NCBI GenBank assembly: GCA_934457235.1
Contig: CAKSHT010000026.1
Coordinates: 1 to 17,924 of the forward strand
Direction: 5' to 3'
Source of the DNA: an uncultured Oscillospiraceae bacterium
Lineage (GTDB): Bacteria > Bacillota > Clostridia > Oscillospirales > Ruminococcaceae
Length of the DNA stretch: 17,924 bases
Shown: positions 109 through 12,873 of the stretch, in pieces
How positions within the stretch are numbered: position 1 is the first letter of the stretch
Layout: every line of letters starts with the position of its first letter
Translations under genes and position numbers: made by a program
Notes under the pieces: model-generated
The model's database searches: none
What the model was told of the DNA's origin: nothing
Seen by the model: only the letters and a program-made list of their open reading frames with translations

Positions 109-2103
109 TCAGAAATCCAGATTCTGAACCAGAGTTGCATTCTGTTCAATGAATTCTCTTCTCGGCTCAACCTTGTCGCCCATGAGAATGGTCATTATCT
201 CGTCGGCCTTTGCGGCGTCCTCAACAGTGATACGTACCATCGTACGGGTTTCGGGGTTCATTGTAGTCTCCCAGAGCTGCTCAGGATCCATCTCACCAAG
301 ACCTTTGTATCGCTGAACATCGACCTTGGCGCCGCTTTCGCCGGAAAGCTCGCGGATATACTTGTCGCGCTCATCATCGGAGAACGCATAGCGCACATTC
401 TTGCCCTTTGAAACCTTGAAAAGCGGAGGCTGTGCGATATATACATGACCCTGCTCGATAAGCGGTCTCATGAACCGGAAGAAAAACGTCAGCATAAGCG
501 TAGAGATATGCGCACCATCGACATCGGCATCTGCCATGATGATAACGCGTCCGTATCTGAGCTTGGTTATGTCGAAATCCTCGGCAATGCCGGTACCCAG
601 CGCCTTGACCACCGGAGAAAGCTTATCGTTGTTGTAAACCTTGTCCGCACGCGCCTTTTCGACGTTCAGCATCTTTCCCCACAGGGAAAGTATAGCCTGG
701 AAGCGTCTGTCGCGTCCGCTCTTTGCAGAGCCGCCCGCAGAGTCTCCCTCGACGATATATATTTCAGTGACTGACGGGTCGCTCTCGGAGCAGTCCGCCA
801 GCTTTCCGGGAAGTCCATTGCTGTCCATAACGGACTTGCGCTTTGCTTCCATAGCCTTCTTCGCAGCGTCGCGGGCAGCCTGGGAGTTCATCGCCTTGTT
901 CATGATTATCATGGCGGTGTCCGGGTGCTCTTCGAAATAATACGTCAGCTGCTCGACGGCAATCTTGTAAACAACCGGCTGTACTTCCGGATTTCCGAGC
1001 TTGCTCTTGGTCTGACCCTCAAACTCGCACTCCGGCAGCTTAACTGAGATTATCGCATTGATAGCCTCGCGGATAGCCTCGCCGCTATAGCCAGTGAACG
1101 GCTTTTCATCCTCGCCCTTCTTCGCGGATTTCTTCTTGGGCTTGTTCTTCTCCTGGTTCTCCTTGTACGCCTTGGCGTAGTCGTTTACGACCTTGCTGAG
1201 AGCCTTCTTGAATCCAAGCTCATGCGTTCCGCCCTCGCCGGTGTGGATATCGTTTGCGAACGATCTGAATATTTCTGAATTGAAGTCCGTAGTATACTGA
1301 AACGCGATCTCAACGTTTATTCCGTTCATGTCGCCGGTGAGATAAATAACGTCCGGGTGGAGCACGTCAGCTCCGCGCTTCTTGTTGAGCCACTCAACAT
1401 AGCTCTTTATGCCGCCCTCGTACATCATTTCCTCGTACACGGGGTTTTCCGGGTCACGGGTATCGGAAAGCGTTATCTTCAGACCGCCGTTAAGAAATGC
1501 CTTTTCGCGCAGTCTGTCCTGTAAGGTCGCATAGTTGAATTCCGTGGTATGGAATATCTGACTGTCCGGCTTGAAAGTAACGGTAGTACCGGTGTGGTCA
1601 GTTGTGCCGATGACCTTTATAGGCTCGCTGTATTCACCGCGTTCAAAGCGCTGGAAATGAATGTTCTTTCCGTCGTGTATCTCAACCTCCAGCCATTCAG
1701 ACAAAGCGTTTACAACGGACGCACCAACGCCGTGCAGGCCGCCTGCGACCTTGTATCCGCCGCCGCCGAACTTACCGCCGGCATGAAGCACCGTGAAAAC
1801 AACGGTAGCCGCAGAAATTCCCTCTGCATGGTTAATAGCGGTAGGGATACCACGACCATTGTCCACAACGCGGATAATGTTGCCAGGGAGAATGGAAACA
1901 TTGATCTCCGTGCAATAGCCCGCAAGAGCCTCGTCGATGGAGTTGTCCACGATCTCATAAACGAGGTGGTGCAGACCGCCCTCGCCGGACGAGCCGACGT
2001 ACATGCCCGGACGCTTTCTGACCGCCTCCAGACCCTTTAGAATCTGGATATCGTCAGCGCCGTAGCTCATGTTCTGATTCTGAACATTTTCATTTTCAGC
2101 CAT
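109..2103 (-). CDS. gyrB: DNA gyrase subunit B
   Basis: ATPase subunit of DNA gyrase, which introduces negative supercoils together with GyrA. The protein is 664 aa, normal for the family. In order: a GHKL ATPase domain with the EIVDNSIDEA helix near residue 50, DNGRGIP at 81-87 and GLHGVG at 122-127; a transducer domain; a TOPRIM domain with EGDSAGG at 452-458 and the acidic D525/D527/D529 triad; and the GyrB-type tail with QLWETTMNPE at 609-618. A lysine-rich insert occupies about 312-334. The frame is open up to 2247, but the ATG at 2103 is chosen because the protein proper begins there and GGAGG precedes it by 12 nt. The 48 extra upstream residues overlap the likely promoter. At the position of E. 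coli K447 this protein has W475. It is separated from dnaA-recF by two plus-strand genes. Confidence 0.98.
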   Translation of the reverse strand: MAENENVQNQNMSYGADDIQILKGLEAVRKRPGMYVGSSGEGGLHHLVYEIVDNSIDEALAGYCTEINVSILPGNIIRVVDNGRGIPTAINHAEGISAATVVFTVLHAGGKFGGGGYKVAGGLHGVGASVVNALSEWLEVEIHDGKNIHFQRFERGEYSEPIKVIGTTDHTGTTVTFKPDSQIFHTTEFNYATLQDRLREKAFLNGGLKITLSDTRDPENPVYEEMMYEGGIKSYVEWLNKKRGADVLHPDVIYLTGDMNGINVEIAFQYTTDFNSEIFRSFANDIHTGEGGTHELGFKKALSKVVNDYAKAYKENQEKNKPKKKSAKKGEDEKPFTGYSGEAIREAINAIISVKLPECEFEGQTKSKLGNPEVQPVVYKIAVEQLTYYFEEHPDTAMIIMNKAMNSQAARDAAKKAMEAKRKSVMDSNGLPGKLADCSESDPSVTEIYIVEGDSAGGSAKSGRDRRFQAILSLWGKMLNVEKARADKVYNNDKLSPVVKALGTGIAEDFDITKLRYGRVIIMADADVDGAHISTLMLTFFFRFMRPLIEQGHVYIAQPPLFKVSKGKNVRYAFSDDERDKYIRELSGESGAKVDVQRYKGLGEMDPEQLWETTMNPETRTMVRITVEDAAKADEIMTILMGDKVEPRREFIEQNATLVQNLDF

Positions 2104-2126
2104 AAAAAACCTTGCCCTCCATATCA

Positions 2127-2169
2127 TACTGAGCCATCTCAGTAAAGCCGCGGGACGTGCAAGCCCCGC
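2127..2169 (-). promoter_or_regulatory. Two hairpins in the gyrB leader
   Basis: Reading the minus strand, the leader first forms GCGGG/CCCGC (2150-2169, 10-nt loop). It then forms a perfect 7-bp stem TACTGAG/CTCAGTA with a 4-nt loop (2127-2144), about 10 nt before the Shine-Dalgarno sequence. No T-tract follows either stem, so they are not terminators. They may affect translation or mRNA stability; that role is inferred. Confidence 0.45.
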
Positions 2170-2196
2170 ATATTGCATAATGCATATATTATATAT

Positions 2197-2225
2197 AGTA
2201 TACCACAAAACCGCCGAAATTGCAA
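2197..2225 (-). promoter_or_regulatory. gyrB promoter (sigma-A type)
   Basis: On the minus strand, -35 TTGCAA (2220-2225) and -10 TATACT (2197-2202) are separated by 17 nt. This gives a leader of roughly 85-90 nt before the gyrB ATG at 2103. Confidence 0.75.
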
Positions 2226-2294
2226 GCATTTGCGCCAGATTTAACACAATAATTTTTATTTCTTCCTATATCGTCAGAGCGTTGCCCAGCAAAG

Positions 2295-2359
2295 TTTTCA
2301 ACACAAAAAAGCTTAACAAACCCGAATAATCAGGTGCATAAATTACTCGCTGTTGAAAA
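2295..2359. promoter_or_regulatory. Two DnaA-box-like sites between gyrB and rpsT
   Basis: TTTTCAACA lies at 2295-2303 and its complement TGTTGAAAA at 2351-2359. They are exact copies, in opposite orientation, of the 9-mer repeated at the origin. They sit between the gyrB -35 and the rpsT -35 in the divergent promoter region. DnaA binding is inferred from the sequence match. Confidence 0.5.
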
Positions 2360-2386
2360 AAATATAAAAAAATTTTGCCGCACCCC

Positions 2387-2415
2387 TTGAAATTCAGAAA
2401 ATAATATGCTATAAT
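2387..2415 (+). promoter_or_regulatory. rpsT promoter (sigma-A type)
   Basis: -35 TTGAAA (2387-2392), a 17-nt spacer, and a perfect -10 TATAAT (2410-2415). Transcription should start near 2422, giving a leader of about 118 nt. Confidence 0.85.
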
Positions 2416-2430
2416 AAAATATATTATTAT

Positions 2431-2514
2431 GGTGTTCAGAATGAGTAATTATAGAAAAACATCTGAATACCCAATAAGATAATAAATCGAGAGCCGCGCA
2501 TGCGCTGTTCCGAT
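2431..2514 (+). promoter_or_regulatory. Structured rpsT leader, candidate autoregulatory RNA
   Basis: Two helices can be drawn. The first pairs 2431-2440 with 2462-2471 (10 bp, one G-U) around a 21-nt loop. The second spans 2486-2514: AUCG/CGAU, a bulged A, GAGC/GUUC, a C-U mismatch and GCG/CGC with loop CATG. It ends 11 nt before the GGAGG. Autoregulation by the ribosomal protein is inferred by analogy with other ribosomal-protein leaders. Confidence 0.4.
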
Positions 2515-2539
2515 CGAATAGCTATGGAGGTGAAAATAA

Positions 2540-2785
2540 ATGCCGAACATCAAGTCTGCAAAGAAGAGAGTTCTCATCGCTAAGGAGAGAACAGAGGCTA
2601 ACAAGGCTTCCAAGACTGCACTCAAGACAGTTATCAAGAAGGCACGCGCTGAGGGTGCTGACGCTGCTGCTATCAAGACCGCAGTTGTAAGCGTAGACAA
2701 GGCTGCTGGCAAAGGTCTTATCCACAAGAACAAGGCTGCCCGCCTGAAGTCCCAGCTTGCAAAGAAAGCAAACGCTACTGCATAA
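2540..2785 (+). CDS. rpsT: Small ribosomal subunit protein S20 (bS20)
   Basis: Primary 16S rRNA-binding protein of the 30S subunit. It is 81 aa and very rich in Lys and Ala, as expected. It starts MPNIKSAKKR, and the conserved stretch VDKAAGKGLIHKNKAARLKS occupies most of the C-terminal half. The ATG at 2540 follows GGAGG (2526-2530) with a 9-nt spacer. It is monocistronic: a strong promoter lies upstream and a terminator begins 20 nt after the stop. It is transcribed toward oriC, head-on to the leftward fork, which is unusual for a highly expressed ribosomal-protein gene this close to the origin. Confidence 0.97.
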   Translation: MPNIKSAKKRVLIAKERTEANKASKTALKTVIKKARAEGADAAAIKTAVVSVDKAAGKGLIHKNKAARLKSQLAKKANATA

Positions 2786-2805
2786 TTCTTGAACAAAGCA
2801 AACTA

Positions 2806-2839
2806 CACCCACAGGCGAAAGCGTGTGGGTGATTGTTTT
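2806..2839 (+). terminator. rpsT terminator
   Basis: CACCCACA pairs with TGTGGGTG (8 bp), followed by a G-G mismatch and a GC/GC closing pair around a GAAA tetraloop. A U-rich tail follows. Confidence 0.85.
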
Positions 2840-2884
2840 ATATAGGGAAAATTGACGTAAAATCCAGAAGAAAGGGGAATTGAC

Positions 2885-3385
2885 ATGGCAGGCGTAAACA
2901 AGGAGATAACAGACATCACGGAAATCGAGCGGATCTTAAAGGAAGCAAAGGTATGCCGCCTTGCACTGATGAACGGGGATTATCCGTACATAATCCCGAT
3001 GTGCTTCGGCTACAAGCTTGACGGAGGACAGCTTGAACTGTACTTTCACAGCGCTCCCACCGGGCAGAAGATAGACCTGATCAAGAAGAGCAATCTTGCA
3101 GGCTTTGAGATAGACTGTCTGACCGGCATCACCAAGGACGAAGCGAGATGCAGTGTGACTGCGATGTACGAATGCATCACCGGAACTGGTTTCGTGGAAA
3201 TAATCAACGGAATCGAAAAGCTCACCGGGCTGACATCCATAATCAGCAAGTACGACGAGGTAAAGCAGGAGCATAAATTCAGTGAACAGGCGCTTAACGG
3301 AATGGTGCTCATCAAGCTCACGGCAGAAAACTTCTGCTGCCGCAGCCACCAGGTGGACGAGGACAACATTGACCTCCCGGAATAA
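2885..3385 (+). CDS. NimA-like pyridoxamine 5'-phosphate oxidase family flavoprotein
   Basis: A 166-aa protein of the FMN-binding split-barrel (PNPOx-like) superfamily, in the branch that includes NimA-type nitroimidazole reductases. The sequence shows the family pattern: an N-terminal helix, AKVCRLALMNGDYPYIIPMC at 21-40, LYFHSAPTGQKIDLI at 52-66 (the region that usually contacts the FMN phosphate), and AGFEID at 72-77. The substrate cannot be told. The name reflects family only, and drug resistance should not be assumed. The ATG at 2885 has AAGGGG 7 nt upstream. No strong promoter is visible between the rpsT terminator and this gene. A terminator follows immediately. Confidence 0.8.
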   Translation: MAGVNKEITDITEIERILKEAKVCRLALMNGDYPYIIPMCFGYKLDGGQLELYFHSAPTGQKIDLIKKSNLAGFEIDCLTGITKDEARCSVTAMYECITGTGFVEIINGIEKLTGLTSIISKYDEVKQEHKFSEQALNGMVLIKLTAENFCCRSHQVDEDNIDLPE

Positions 3386-3391
3386 CAAAGA

Positions 3392-3420
3392 AAGAGCGGA
3401 GATGATCCGCTCTTATTTCA
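3392..3420 (+). terminator. Terminator of the NimA-like gene
   Basis: A perfect 9-bp stem AAGAGCGGA/TCCGCTCTT (3392-3400 with 3406-3414) with a 5-nt loop and a T-rich tail, 6 nt after the stop codon. Confidence 0.8.
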
Positions 3421-3535
3421 TGCCAAGTTAAAACACTACAAGTATAATTAGCAGATAATTATACAGATTATTATAGAAGCTTGTAATCCGTTATGTAATA
3501 ATTTTAGTAGTAATTACATAAAGTATTTATAAAGC
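3421..3535. other. AT-rich spacer with two inverted repeats
   Basis: No gene is seen between the two convergent terminators. The stretch holds GTATAATT/AATTATAC (3442-3449 with 3457-3464) and TTATGTAAT/ATTACATAA (3491-3499 with 3523-3531). Confidence 0.6.
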
Positions 3536-9863: not shown

Positions 9864-10673
9864 TCAGTTGTATCCGGTGTAACGCACTCTACGGCGCGTT
9901 ATCACCAGGGATTCGGGGTCAAAGGTGTATTCGTATTTCTTTACCGTGTACGTTCCGTACTCCTTGGCTACGATGTGCTGATGCATCACTCCGGCGGACT
10001 GCGGCTCCAGGTGTGTACCGTACGGGGCGGTCTCTATGCCGTTTTCGTATACCGGGACCTCCACGAGCTTTTTGTCGGATATTGCGAAATACCGCGCGTA
10101 CTGCGGTACCTCCACTTCGTTCAGCAGAACGAAATCAAGCTGGATAAGGTCAGGGTACTCCGCGGCGTCGAAGTCACGCATGTTTGAGATTATATCGCAG
10201 CCGTATGTCAGGTTTTTCAGCACGTTTTCAAATATGAGGAATTCGTCGTCACGGGGAACGTTTATTTTCAGTGTGTCGATAATTTCTCCCTGCTGGAGGA
10301 GGTCGAGACGGAAATCCCCGTAGACGCTGCCGTTGATGACAGTGGTTTCAAGCTCCGGGGCCTCTGTGGTTTCCGGTAGCTTTATGCAGGAGATGTCAAC
10401 GGTGAAATACTCCCCGCCGGAATACACGTTCGTTATAGAATATGAAAGGCGGCTGCCCTCTATTCTCGGAGTTTGGACCGCCGGGGGTATGACTTCATCG
10501 GGCTGGAGCGGCTCCGGATCCGGTGTCGTGGTGGTAGGAACGGAGGTCGCTGCCGTAGTCGTTTCGGTGGAAGAAGCGACAGTGACCGAAGCGTTTGACT
10601 GAGTATCCTCCAGATTGCAGCCGGTCAGCAGCATAAAGGCTGCGCAGACCATCAGCGCAGATATGTATTTCAT
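9864..10673 (-). CDS. Predicted lipoprotein, unknown function
   Basis: A 269-aa protein with a type II signal peptide: a short hydrophobic segment, then lipobox LLTGC with C19 as the lipidated residue. A Thr/Ser/Pro-rich low-complexity linker runs from about 22 to 60, typical of a surface tether. The rest, rich in beta-type sequence, has no recognised domain. It should sit on the outer face of the membrane. The ATG at 10673 has AAGGGGGTG just upstream and a good promoter beyond. It is co-transcribed with the downstream HD hydrolase. No link between the two activities is evident from sequence. Confidence 0.75.
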   Translation of the reverse strand: MKYISALMVCAAFMLLTGCNLEDTQSNASVTVASSTETTTAATSVPTTTTPDPEPLQPDEVIPPAVQTPRIEGSRLSYSITNVYSGGEYFTVDISCIKLPETTEAPELETTVINGSVYGDFRLDLLQQGEIIDTLKINVPRDDEFLIFENVLKNLTYGCDIISNMRDFDAAEYPDLIQLDFVLLNEVEVPQYARYFAISDKKLVEVPVYENGIETAPYGTHLEPQSAGVMHQHIVAKEYGTYTVKKYEYTFDPESLVITRRRVRYTGYN

Positions 10674-10712
10674 AACGCCACCCCCTTGTTTCCGGTAAAA
10701 GTTTCTATACTT

Positions 10713-10741
10713 ATTATATAGAATTTAACGTAAAAAATCAA
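10713..10741 (-). promoter_or_regulatory. Promoter of the lipoprotein-HD operon
   Basis: On the minus strand, -35 TTGATT (10736-10741), 17-nt spacer, perfect -10 TATAAT (10713-10718). Confidence 0.8.
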
Positions 10742-10822
10742 GACATTTTTGGACGCATAATCCGTATAGCGCGGAGAAACAGGCACTGCGTTACATTTAT
10801 TGGGTCTTGTCTGCTAAAGTCC

Positions 10823-10851
10823 TTGACTTTTGGCGGGAATAGTAGTACAAT
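10823..10851 (+). promoter_or_regulatory. thrS promoter (sigma-A type)
   Basis: -35 TTGACT (10823-10828), 17-nt spacer, -10 TACAAT (10846-10851). Transcription should start near 10858, leaving a leader of only about 75 nt, too short for a T-box. Confidence 0.85.
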
Positions 10852-10859
10852 AAAGGATA

Positions 10860-10914
10860 CACAGCATATGGCTGTGAATTTACATTGAACGGCAGGGCTT
10901 TTGTTTAGCTCTGC
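10860..10914 (+). promoter_or_regulatory. thrS leader with tRNA-Thr anticodon-arm mimic
   Basis: The first hairpin is CACAGC/GCTGTG (10860-10876) with a 5-nt loop at the very 5' end of the mRNA. The second is an 8-bp stem (10892-10899 with 10907-10914, one G-U) closing a 7-nt loop TTTGTTT. Numbered like an anticodon loop, positions 32-38 place U at 33 and UGU, a threonine anticodon, at 34-36. The purine-rich ribosome-binding stretch AAGGAAAGGAAG starts on the next base (10915-10926). The pairing is seen directly. Binding of ThrRS and translational autocontrol are inferred from the known E. coli thrS operator. Confidence 0.5.
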
Positions 10915-10932
10915 AAGGAAAGGAAGTTCAGT

Positions 10933-12873
10933 ATGATTAAAGTTACACTGGCAAATGGCGAAACGAAGGAATTCGACTCACAGCTGTCCGCGTTCGACGC
11001 AGCGAGGGAGCTTGGCGAAGCAAAGACCGCATGTGCCGCAGAGATCGACGGCAAGGTCTGCGACCTGCGAACTACACTGACTGACGGCTGCACCGTGAAG
11101 TTCCTCACATTTGAGGACGAGCAGGGGCAGAGAGCCTTCAACCACACCGCCTCCCACGTTCTGGCGCAGGCAGTGAAGCGCCTTTACCCGGCAACTAAGC
11201 TTGCCATTGGTCCGGCCATCGAGAACGGCTTCTATTATGATTTCGACACCGAGGAGCCTTTCACCACCGACATACTGGCAAAGATCGAAGCAGAAATGAA
11301 GAAGATCGTCAAGGAGTCTATCCGTCTCGAACACTTCACAATGGCTCCCGACGAAGCAATAAAGTACCTTGAGGAGCAGGGCGAGCCTTATAAGGTAGAG
11401 TTGTGCCAGGAGCACGCTGACAAGGGCGAGCCTATCTCCTTCTACAAGCAGGGCGATTTCACCGACCTGTGCGCGGGTCCGCACCTTATGTCCACATCTC
11501 CGGTCAAGGCGTTCAAGCTCACTTCCGTTACCGGCGCTTACTGGCGCGGCAGCGAGAAGAACAAGATGCTCACCAGAATCTATGGTACTGCATTCCCGTC
11601 CAAGGACGCACTTAACGCACATCTTGAGGCTCTTGAGGACGCCAAGCGCCGCGACCACAACAAGATAGGCAGGGAGCTTGAATACTTCACCACCGTTGAC
11701 TATATCGGTCAGGGTCTGCCGATACTCCTGCCGAAAGGCGCAAAGGTCGTTCAGATCATGCAGCGCTGGGTTGAGGACGTTGAGGCAAAGCACGGCTGCC
11801 AGCTCACCAAGACTCCGTATATGGCTAAGCGCGAGCTGTACAAAATTTCCGGTCACTGGGATCACTATCTCGACGGAATGTTCGTACTGGGCGATCCCAA
11901 TGATGAGACCAAGGAGTGTTTCGCGCTCCGTCCGATGACCTGCCCGTTCCAGTATCAGGTATTCCTGAACAGACAGCGCAGCTACCGCGACCTCCCCATG
12001 CGCCTGACCGAGACCTCCACACTGTTCCGTAACGAGGACAGCGGCGAGATGCACGGACTTATCAGAGTACGTCAGTTCACTATCTCTGAGGGTCACTATA
12101 TCCTCCGTCCTGAGCAGCTTGAGGATGAGTTCAGAAACTGCCTGGAGCTTGCCAAGTACTGCCTGGATACCGTAGGACTTCTTGAGGACTGCACGTTCCG
12201 CTTCTCGCAGTGGGACCCCGCAAATCCCAAGAACAAGTACGAGGGTACCGCTGAGCAGTGGGAGATCGCACAGGCTACCATGAAGACCATTCTGGACGAC
12301 CTGGGCGTTGAGTACACCATCGGTATCGACGAGGCTGCATTCTACGGACCTAAGCTGGATATTCAGTATAAGAACGTATTCGGCAAGGAAGACACACTGG
12401 TTACTATCCAGATAGATATGCTGCTCGCACAGCGCTTCGGCATGGAGTACGTCGATGTTGACGGAACCAAGAAGTATCCGTATATCATCCATCGTACCAG
12501 CCTTGGCTGCTACGAAAGAACCCTGGCATACCTGCTGGAAAAGTACGCTGGCGCCCTGCCGCTGTGGCTGTCGCCGGAGCAGGTACGAATCCTGCCTATC
12601 ACCGATCGTGCAAAGGATTATGCAGAGAGCATTGCAAAGCGCTTCGACGATATGAACATGCGTGTTACAGTAGATAACCGTAACGAGAAGATCGGCTACA
12701 AGATCCGCCAGGCTCAGCTTGAAAAGATCCCGTACTTCTTCATTCTCGGCGACAAGGAGGTCGAGGACAACACCGTATCCCTGCGTTCACGCAAGGACGG
12801 CGATCTTGGTGCTTCCCCGCTTGAGGACGTTATCGCGAAGATCGTTAAGGAAAACTTAGAAAAGGCAAGATGA
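10933..12873 (+). CDS. thrS: Threonyl-tRNA synthetase
   Basis: Class II synthetase that charges tRNA-Thr and clears mischarged Ser-tRNA-Thr. It is 646 aa, full length. It has an N-terminal TGS domain (1-60), an editing domain with H71 and H75 in HTASH and C180/H184 in LCAGPH, and SVTGAYWRG near 198-206. The catalytic core contains motif 2 around TSTLFRNEDSGEMHGLIRVR (361-380) and motif 3 near HRTSLGCYERTLAYLLE (520-536). The zinc ligands are likely C337, H388 and H520. The anticodon-binding domain follows LPLWLSPEQVRILPI. The core differs in detail from the E. coli form (for example MTCPFQYQVF, where MTCPMHH is common), but all key residues are present. Its leader has a hairpin resembling the tRNA-Thr anticodon arm. 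sseB follows 19 nt later. Confidence 0.98.
   Translation: MIKVTLANGETKEFDSQLSAFDAARELGEAKTACAAEIDGKVCDLRTTLTDGCTVKFLTFEDEQGQRAFNHTASHVLAQAVKRLYPATKLAIGPAIENGFYYDFDTEEPFTTDILAKIEAEMKKIVKESIRLEHFTMAPDEAIKYLEEQGEPYKVELCQEHADKGEPISFYKQGDFTDLCAGPHLMSTSPVKAFKLTSVTGAYWRGSEKNKMLTRIYGTAFPSKDALNAHLEALEDAKRRDHNKIGRELEYFTTVDYIGQGLPILLPKGAKVVQIMQRWVEDVEAKHGCQLTKTPYMAKRELYKISGHWDHYLDGMFVLGDPNDETKECFALRPMTCPFQYQVFLNRQRSYRDLPMRLTETSTLFRNEDSGEMHGLIRVRQFTISEGHYILRPEQLEDEFRNCLELAKYCLDTVGLLEDCTFRFSQWDPANPKNKYEGTAEQWEIAQATMKTILDDLGVEYTIGIDEAAFYGPKLDIQYKNVFGKEDTLVTIQIDMLLAQRFGMEYVDVDGTKKYPYIIHRTSLGCYERTLAYLLEKYAGALPLWLSPEQVRILPITDRAKDYAESIAKRFDDMNMRVTVDNRNEKIGYKIRQAQLEKIPYFFILGDKEVEDNTVSLRSRKDGDLGASPLEDVIAKIVKENLEKAR

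Follow-up and report, generated by a model that had tools for sequence, protein, structure and literature searches.

A hairpin resembling the tRNA-Thr anticodon arm as a probable translational operator of thrS in a genus of Clostridia

The thrS gene of an uncultured Oscillospiraceae bacterium is preceded by a short leader whose main hairpin resembles the anticodon arm of tRNA-Thr and lies directly against the ribosome-binding site. We assign a probability of roughly 0.86 to the reading that this leader is a translational operator, through which threonyl-tRNA synthetase (ThrRS) would bind the mimic and so hold down its own synthesis; that the enzyme binds, represses, and is released by tRNA is deduced from sequence and from analogy with E. 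coli. The evidence consists of a fixed loop, compensating changes in the stem, the position at the ribosome-binding site, the lack of a T-box core, a second type of such hairpin in another genus, and the domains of ThrRS. A hairpin at the ribosome-binding site of thrS that keeps the identity bases and varies between threonine anticodons alone leaves little room for another reading, and the operator probably works like that of E. coli. An E. coli-like operator had been proposed in a sequence-only reading of the DNA, and the proposal is strengthened by a loop conserved in 41 of 41 leaders, by stem compensation, and by contact with the ribosome-binding site, with binding and repression still at the level of prediction.

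Architecture of the thrS leader

We refer to the whole stretch of DNA analysed, 17,924 nucleotides long, as the window; all elements of the leader are on its forward strand. A promoter recognised by reading the sequence (10823 to 10851; -35 element TTGACT, 17-nucleotide spacer, -10 element TACAAT) places the predicted transcription start near 10858, and thus gives thrS a predicted 5' UTR of ~75 nucleotides (10858 to 10932), in which no T-box was found. Folding yields a 5' hairpin, CACAGC-ATATG-GCTGTG (10860 to 10876), which is a candidate second domain or 5'-end protector. An A/T-rich linker (10877 to 10891) joins it to the anticodon-mimic hairpin (10892 to 10914), whose stem of eight base pairs, one of them G.U (10892 to 10899 with 10907 to 10914), closes the seven-nucleotide loop TTTGTTT (UUUGUUU in RNA; 10900 to 10906). 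Loop positions 34 to 36, numbered as in tRNA, are UGU (10902 to 10904). The purines of the ribosome-binding site, AAGGAAAGGA (10915 to 10924), begin on the next base, and thrS follows (10933 to 12873, with ATG at 10933). Direct reading bears out the predicted promoter, start, and leader length, and the stem, the loop, and the abutting purines, as they had been described from the sequence alone.

The encoded ThrRS has 646 amino acids and carries TGS, editing (SAD), class II core, and anticodon-binding domains (Pfam: TGS 2-59, tRNA_SAD 168-217, core 324-538, HGTP_anticodon 550-639). Its gene is transcribed from its own predicted promoter, away from a divergent open frame on the minus strand (9864 to 10673). 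Between 109 and 8164, the window contains open frames resembling gyrB, recF, dnaN, and dnaA, as judged by eye from their translations, and the window is therefore probably near a replication origin.

The leader and first codons together fold better than shuffled sequences (z -3.28, equalled by 2 of 200 shuffles), and an eight-base-pair stem with a seven-nucleotide NTNGTNN loop arises in 6 of 20,000 dinucleotide shuffles of the leader.

Conservation of the hairpin across the genus

Relatives were collected by a ThrRS search of genome contigs, from which the best 80 loci were taken, and the hairpin was read in two of these (L001 and L066). Their genus comprises 43 genomes, and the genus search was repeated from the other centre. 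Leaders were read in the window and in 40 of the 43 genomes, giving 41; the three genomes without a readable thrS start are G026 (thrS end only), G027, and G028 (no thrS match). The G027 contig stops 16 nucleotides past the hairpin, with no thrS left to read.

The mimic hairpin is present in all 41 readable leaders. A strict hairpin pattern matches 38 of them, the exceptions being L093 and L094, in which the innermost C-G pair is replaced by U-A, and L091, which has no base following the loop (position 39). Loop positions 32, 33, 35, and 36 are T, T, G, and T in every leader. At position 34, 29 leaders have T and 12 have C, so that the loop presents UGU or CGU, both of which are threonine anticodons. 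Alignment of related leaders had been suggested as a check on the window hairpin, and the outcome, an invariable TT[T/C]GT and a stem with compensating changes, favours it. The U at position 37 of the window had been counted against mimicry; this objection is weakened, because U occurs in 9 of the 41 leaders but A in 31, with C in the remaining one.

On a thrS tree (FastTree, midpoint root, with some partial rows and L120 as a long outlier), parsimony gives no changes at positions 32, 33, 35, and 36, eight at position 34, all between U and C, and 11 and 10 at the flanking positions 31 and 38, respectively. Position 34 varies by transitions, the commoner kind of change, so that finding neither A nor G at this position is weak evidence when taken alone. 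Mean pairwise identity is 92% in loop positions 32 to 36, 63% in the stem, and 30% in the 30 nucleotides upstream (40 leaders, L091 excluded). In 32 of the 41 leaders, the operator is preceded by a promoter-like pair with a score of 9 or more out of 12; none so scoring is found in the other nine.

Two genus members are unusual in their thrS genes. The ThrRS of L120 (genome G031) is 63% identical to that of the window, compared with 84 to 97% for other full-length copies in the genus; its leader hairpin is ordinary, and its long tree branch perhaps points to misassembly or to replacement of part of the sequence. L084 (G002:C109) is a second, partial thrS (residues 183 to 646, 86%) on a small contig, and is either a duplicate or part of a foreign contig.

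Resemblance to tRNA-Thr and possible readers of the loop

We searched for tRNA-Thr in one genus genome, G011, by applying ARAGORN to 30 loci that surround tRNA matches, out of 41 such matches. This genome has tRNA-Thr with GGU, UGU, and CGU anticodons, whose arms are CATC-CTTGGTAAG-GATG, GCTG-ATTTGTAAT-CAGC, and GCGC-ATTCGTAAT-GCGC; the operators resemble the last two, and GGU is used by none of the 41. With the preceding base, the tRNA loops read A-TTCGTAA (CGU) and A-TTTGTAA (UGU), and examples from operators read A-TTCGTAT and A-TTTGTAG. Leaders with A at positions 31 and 37 match the tRNA throughout positions 31 to 37 (A-TTCGTA or A-TTTGTA), and differ at 38 and 39. The mimicry has limits, in that the tRNA loop is not reproduced in full: none of the 41 leaders has A at position 38, where T, C, or G is found, and among the 38 leaders of the strict-pattern set, 32 have positions 31 and 39 opposed as G.A or A.A.

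A conserved loop by itself names no reader, and the loop might instead be recognised by a small RNA, a pairing tRNA, or a different RNA-binding protein. That leaders in these bacteria can read tRNA directly is clear from their T-boxes, at least one of which scores above the Rfam cut-off in each of the 43 genus genomes, away from thrS among the matches listed. However, TT[TC]GT contains the anticodon and not a threonine codon (ACN), and is thus unlike a T-box specifier, and the gene downstream encodes the very enzyme that reads UGU and CGU anticodons. Moreover, the accessible text of a review gives G35 and U36 as threonine identity bases, with which the interchange of U34 and C34 is consistent. 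We consider that another reader has little chance of being the explanation, and prefer ThrRS.

Stem covariation and specificity

To analyse the stem, we aligned the 28 distinct hairpins. Pairing is found in 87.8% of stem cells, and sliding the partners lowers this figure to 46.3% or less. Cells with double changes number 36, compared with 14.4 (sd 2.9) in shuffles that ignore relatedness, and none of 500 shuffles reaches 36; further pair types number 12, no more than the shuffles give (14.0). Each of the four inner pairs holds throughout the alignment, and mispairing affects the three outer pairs in 7, 8, and 9 of the 28 hairpins. Counted on the tree, the inner pairs underwent 1, 2, 5, and 3 changes, and pairing was never broken. 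Unbroken stems of at least 5 base pairs occur in 29 of the 41 leaders, and of at least 6 in 23. A bulged alternative stem pairs in 79.6% of cells rather than 87.8%, but one alternative pair was mis-set (columns 4 and 30 never pair), and the comparison therefore carries little weight.

A covariance model (R1) was built from 28 distinct hairpins, whose recovery is by construction. Genomes were searched with the stricter filters of Infernal, with 150 or 17 candidates scored per genome. Of the 43 genus genomes, 41 contain a single strong R1 match (at least 32 bits); 40 of these matches are at thrS and one is on the cut contig of G027, a genome that was not used in building the model; the next-best match anywhere in these genomes scores 25 bits. 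Scores above 31 bits occur only in genus members, which are seven among 396 genomes of the family and three among 394 of the order. No ThrRS match lies within roughly 2 to 3 kb of the 13 weaker family matches examined (L138-L150) or of nine matches from the order searches (L327-L335); the weaker R1 matches examined were 13 from the family and one from the order. Across 96 sources outside the genus no R1 match reaches 18 bits. One locus, L192, was rejected as an operator; it sits in an open frame that we judged by eye to encode pyruvate phosphate dikinase.

A simpler pattern gives a similar separation. A TTYGTNN hairpin with at least 4 unbroken pairs, under a rule that permits a closing mismatch, is found in 40 of 41 genus leaders and in none of 94 other thrS leaders; raising the minimum to 5 or 6 pairs leaves 29 or 23 of the 41, respectively, and still none of the 94. 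Looser NTNGTNN hairpins are present in six of the 94 (L160, L017, L024, L029, L068, and L158).

The 5' hairpin and the ribosome-binding site

Most leaders of the genus have a 5' hairpin near their predicted 5' end, whose sequence is not conserved. The 5' part could be folded in 36 of the 41 leaders, namely those with a promoter candidate and enough sequence, and gives a mean z of -2.75; the mean is -3.01 for the 32 with a promoter score of at least 9. Folds are poor for two of these 32 (L101, z -0.27; L108, 0.24) and for three of the four poor-promoter leaders (L082, 0.35; L088, 0.83; L093, -0.20). Outside this count are L091, L099, L105, and L122, which have no promoter candidate, and L104, which is too short. 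The suggestion that the 5' hairpin forms a second domain fits its frequency in the genus, but the window loop, ATATG, has no NGU and so is not anticodon-like, and some leaders of the second type described below have no such hairpin. A role as an obligatory domain is weakened by the five second-type leaders of this kind, and also by leaders without a recognisable promoter.

The 5' hairpin, near the transcription start, could stabilise the mRNA, and the mimic hairpin adjoins the ribosome-binding site, a closeness visible by eye in other genus leaders too. The hairpin could instead be a structural feature that serves the initiation of translation or the stability of the mRNA, by flanking the ribosome-binding site or shielding the 5' end, without imitating a tRNA. 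Such an element needs no fixed loop, yet UU[U/C]GU is retained in all 41 leaders while the stem and flanks vary, and the different hairpin of a second genus also bears a threonine anticodon loop. We regard this explanation as very unlikely, and retain the operator reading.

T-box riboswitches at thrS and elsewhere

T-boxes respond to tRNA charging, and read the tRNA through codon-anticodon pairing. The T-box riboswitch (RF00230) resembles the present element in serving thrS, as it does in many related genomes; here, in contrast, it is the mRNA that takes on the likeness of the tRNA. None of the 41 genus leaders contains the T-box core motif (up to 600 nucleotides read, with four under 300). 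An Rfam scan of the whole window gives no family at gathering score, and at E<=5 the region 10600 to 11100 has a single irrelevant match, on the opposite strand within thrS. These results agree with the earlier view that the hairpin stands in place of a T-box. The same motif search, which misses variants, detects a T-box core in 57 of 71 other thrS leaders. In a second set of 80 leaders, read to ~250 nucleotides and including 16 from the second genus, it is found in 21, and T-box use at thrS is therefore patchy within the family. According to the accessible text of a published survey (PMC2494555), at least 29 of 34 Firmicutes have T-box control of thrS, as of ileS, alaS, and serS, in line with the statement that thrS is usually T-box controlled in Firmicutes.

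Despite this prevalence, a degenerate or divergent T-box, or leader-peptide attenuation, has a practically negligible probability, given the missing core, a leader of ~75 nucleotides compared with 219 positions in the T-box model, and a mini-ORF, MAVNLH (10868 to 10888), that is free of threonine codons and shares part of its length with the unconserved 5' hairpin.

Comparison with the E. coli operator and proposed mechanism

According to the accessible portions of four papers, E. coli ThrRS binds anticodon-like hairpins in the thrS leader and blocks the 30S subunit, the N-terminal region of the enzyme is needed for repression, and placing a methionine anticodon in the operator brings it under the control of MetRS (PMC11088916, PMC7373986, PMC9976931, PMC3858243). 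In the literature consulted, control of a synthetase's own mRNA through tRNA mimicry has been worked out, among bacteria, for E. coli thrS. In the E. coli leader (NC_000913), GTGATC-TTTCGTGTG-GGTCAC, with the operator loop UUCGUGU, is followed after ~10 nucleotides by AAGGA, and the upstream hairpin is TAGC-ATTTGTTG-GCTA.

The two leaders share the same gene, a hairpin with a UU-N-GU loop upstream of the ribosome-binding site, and an upstream hairpin, and both enzymes have TGS and editing domains. PDB entry 1kog, which we take to be the ThrRS-operator complex, is among the relatives of the window ThrRS. The host, however, belongs to Clostridia rather than Gammaproteobacteria, the leader is ~75 nucleotides long, and the hairpin lies directly against the ribosome-binding purines instead of ~10 nucleotides away. 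The upstream hairpin of the window does not imitate an anticodon arm as E. coli domain 4 does. The unpaired linker of E. coli (domain 3) has a possible counterpart in the A/T-rich linker, which is mostly unpaired when the 5' part is folded alone, but partly paired in the full fold of the window: the minimum-energy fold adds an outer stem, in which the 3' end of the linker (10884 to 10890) pairs with 10926 to 10932 and encloses the ribosome-binding site. This pairing is possible in 11 of the 41 leaders, where its core, GAAC/GTTC, shows no variation and thus neither supports nor refutes the outer stem.

With filters off, R1 does not pick up the E. coli thrS operator, although signs of relationship could vanish completely from an element of this size; shared descent is thus not supported, and convergence seems the simpler reading of the sequence likeness. 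The yeast AspRS and HisRS mRNAs, as the accessible sources describe them, likewise contain an anticodon mimic bound by the synthetase; yeast RPC10 mRNA, which ThrRS binds, also has a mimic. These systems are eukaryotic, and RPC10 does not encode the synthetase. Among the titles and abstracts listed by searches of the open-access literature, none deals with such an operator in Clostridia.

We propose that the hairpin at 10892 to 10914 would imitate the tRNA-Thr anticodon arm, with UGU here and CGU in some relatives, and that free ThrRS would bind it through the C-terminal anticodon-binding domain. The bound enzyme would cover the adjoining ribosome-binding site and block entry of the 30S subunit. 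An abundance of tRNA-Thr awaiting charging would draw ThrRS off the leader and translation would resume, so that the supply of enzyme would follow demand.

Other operator types in the family

The looser NTNGTNN scan brought out L160 (genome G299), whose ThrRS is 76% identical to that of the window. G299 is one of the 396 family genomes, and its genus comprises 71 genomes, of which 66 have a ThrRS match. We read 45 leaders from this second genus, covering most of the better ThrRS matches, with some starts uncertain. A second type of hairpin, CCGCT-loop-GGCGG, adjoins the ribosome-binding site in 15 of the 45, and is absent from the other 30. Its loops are CTCGTAT, CTCGTAA, and CTTGTAT. A short 5' hairpin is present in 10 of the 15 leaders; the other five (L236, L239, L240, L242, and L244) have none, and only about 9 nucleotides are predicted to precede the mimic. 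The five core pairs are invariant, and covariation consequently cannot support this hairpin; the next pair is A-T, G-C, or A.C (L239) in the short subtype. A model of the second type (R2), built from 11 distinct hairpins, gives eight strong matches in the 394 order genomes, all at thrS and all in already known carriers.

In L210-L212, the last 135 nucleotides before thrS hold a possible third type, AAATCCG-TTTTGTACT-CGGATTT and variants, in which a TTTGTNN loop lies within an outer stem ~25 nucleotides before the ribosome-binding purines. A similar promoter with no such loop is found in L213-L218 and several other loci of the second genus.

The ThrRS proteins of L160 (minus strand, 1501 to 3435) and L229 (1501 to 3402) are 55% identical overall; their N-terminal parts and C-terminal anticodon domains are alike and their catalytic cores have diverged, as if the core had been swapped and the leader and outer domains retained. 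Another sequence, L209 (MT835816.1), is labelled Bacteriophage sp. and looks like a bacterial chromosome; its thrS is 81% identical to that of the window, and no such hairpin was seen by eye in its leader.

It seems somewhat more likely than not that thrS, within a single family of Clostridia, abandoned the T-box and acquired mimic operators bound by ThrRS at least twice, independently of E. coli. The shortest of these would be single-hairpin operators with the complete anticodon loop CUCGUAA. The third type in L210-L212 perhaps represents a further origin within the family.

Implications

The same regulatory logic as in E. coli would here operate in Clostridia, a branch in which the T-box is the rule and such an operator was not expected. 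If the reading is correct, the second and possibly third types imply that operators of this kind arise readily and replace T-boxes. Natural variation would then offer a ready-made mutational scan, in which G35 and U36 are fixed, U34 and C34 are interchangeable, position 32 is U in one type and C in the other, and the 5' hairpin is missing from some leaders. The short leaders of the second type may also provide a way to test the minimal RNA that a synthetase requires.
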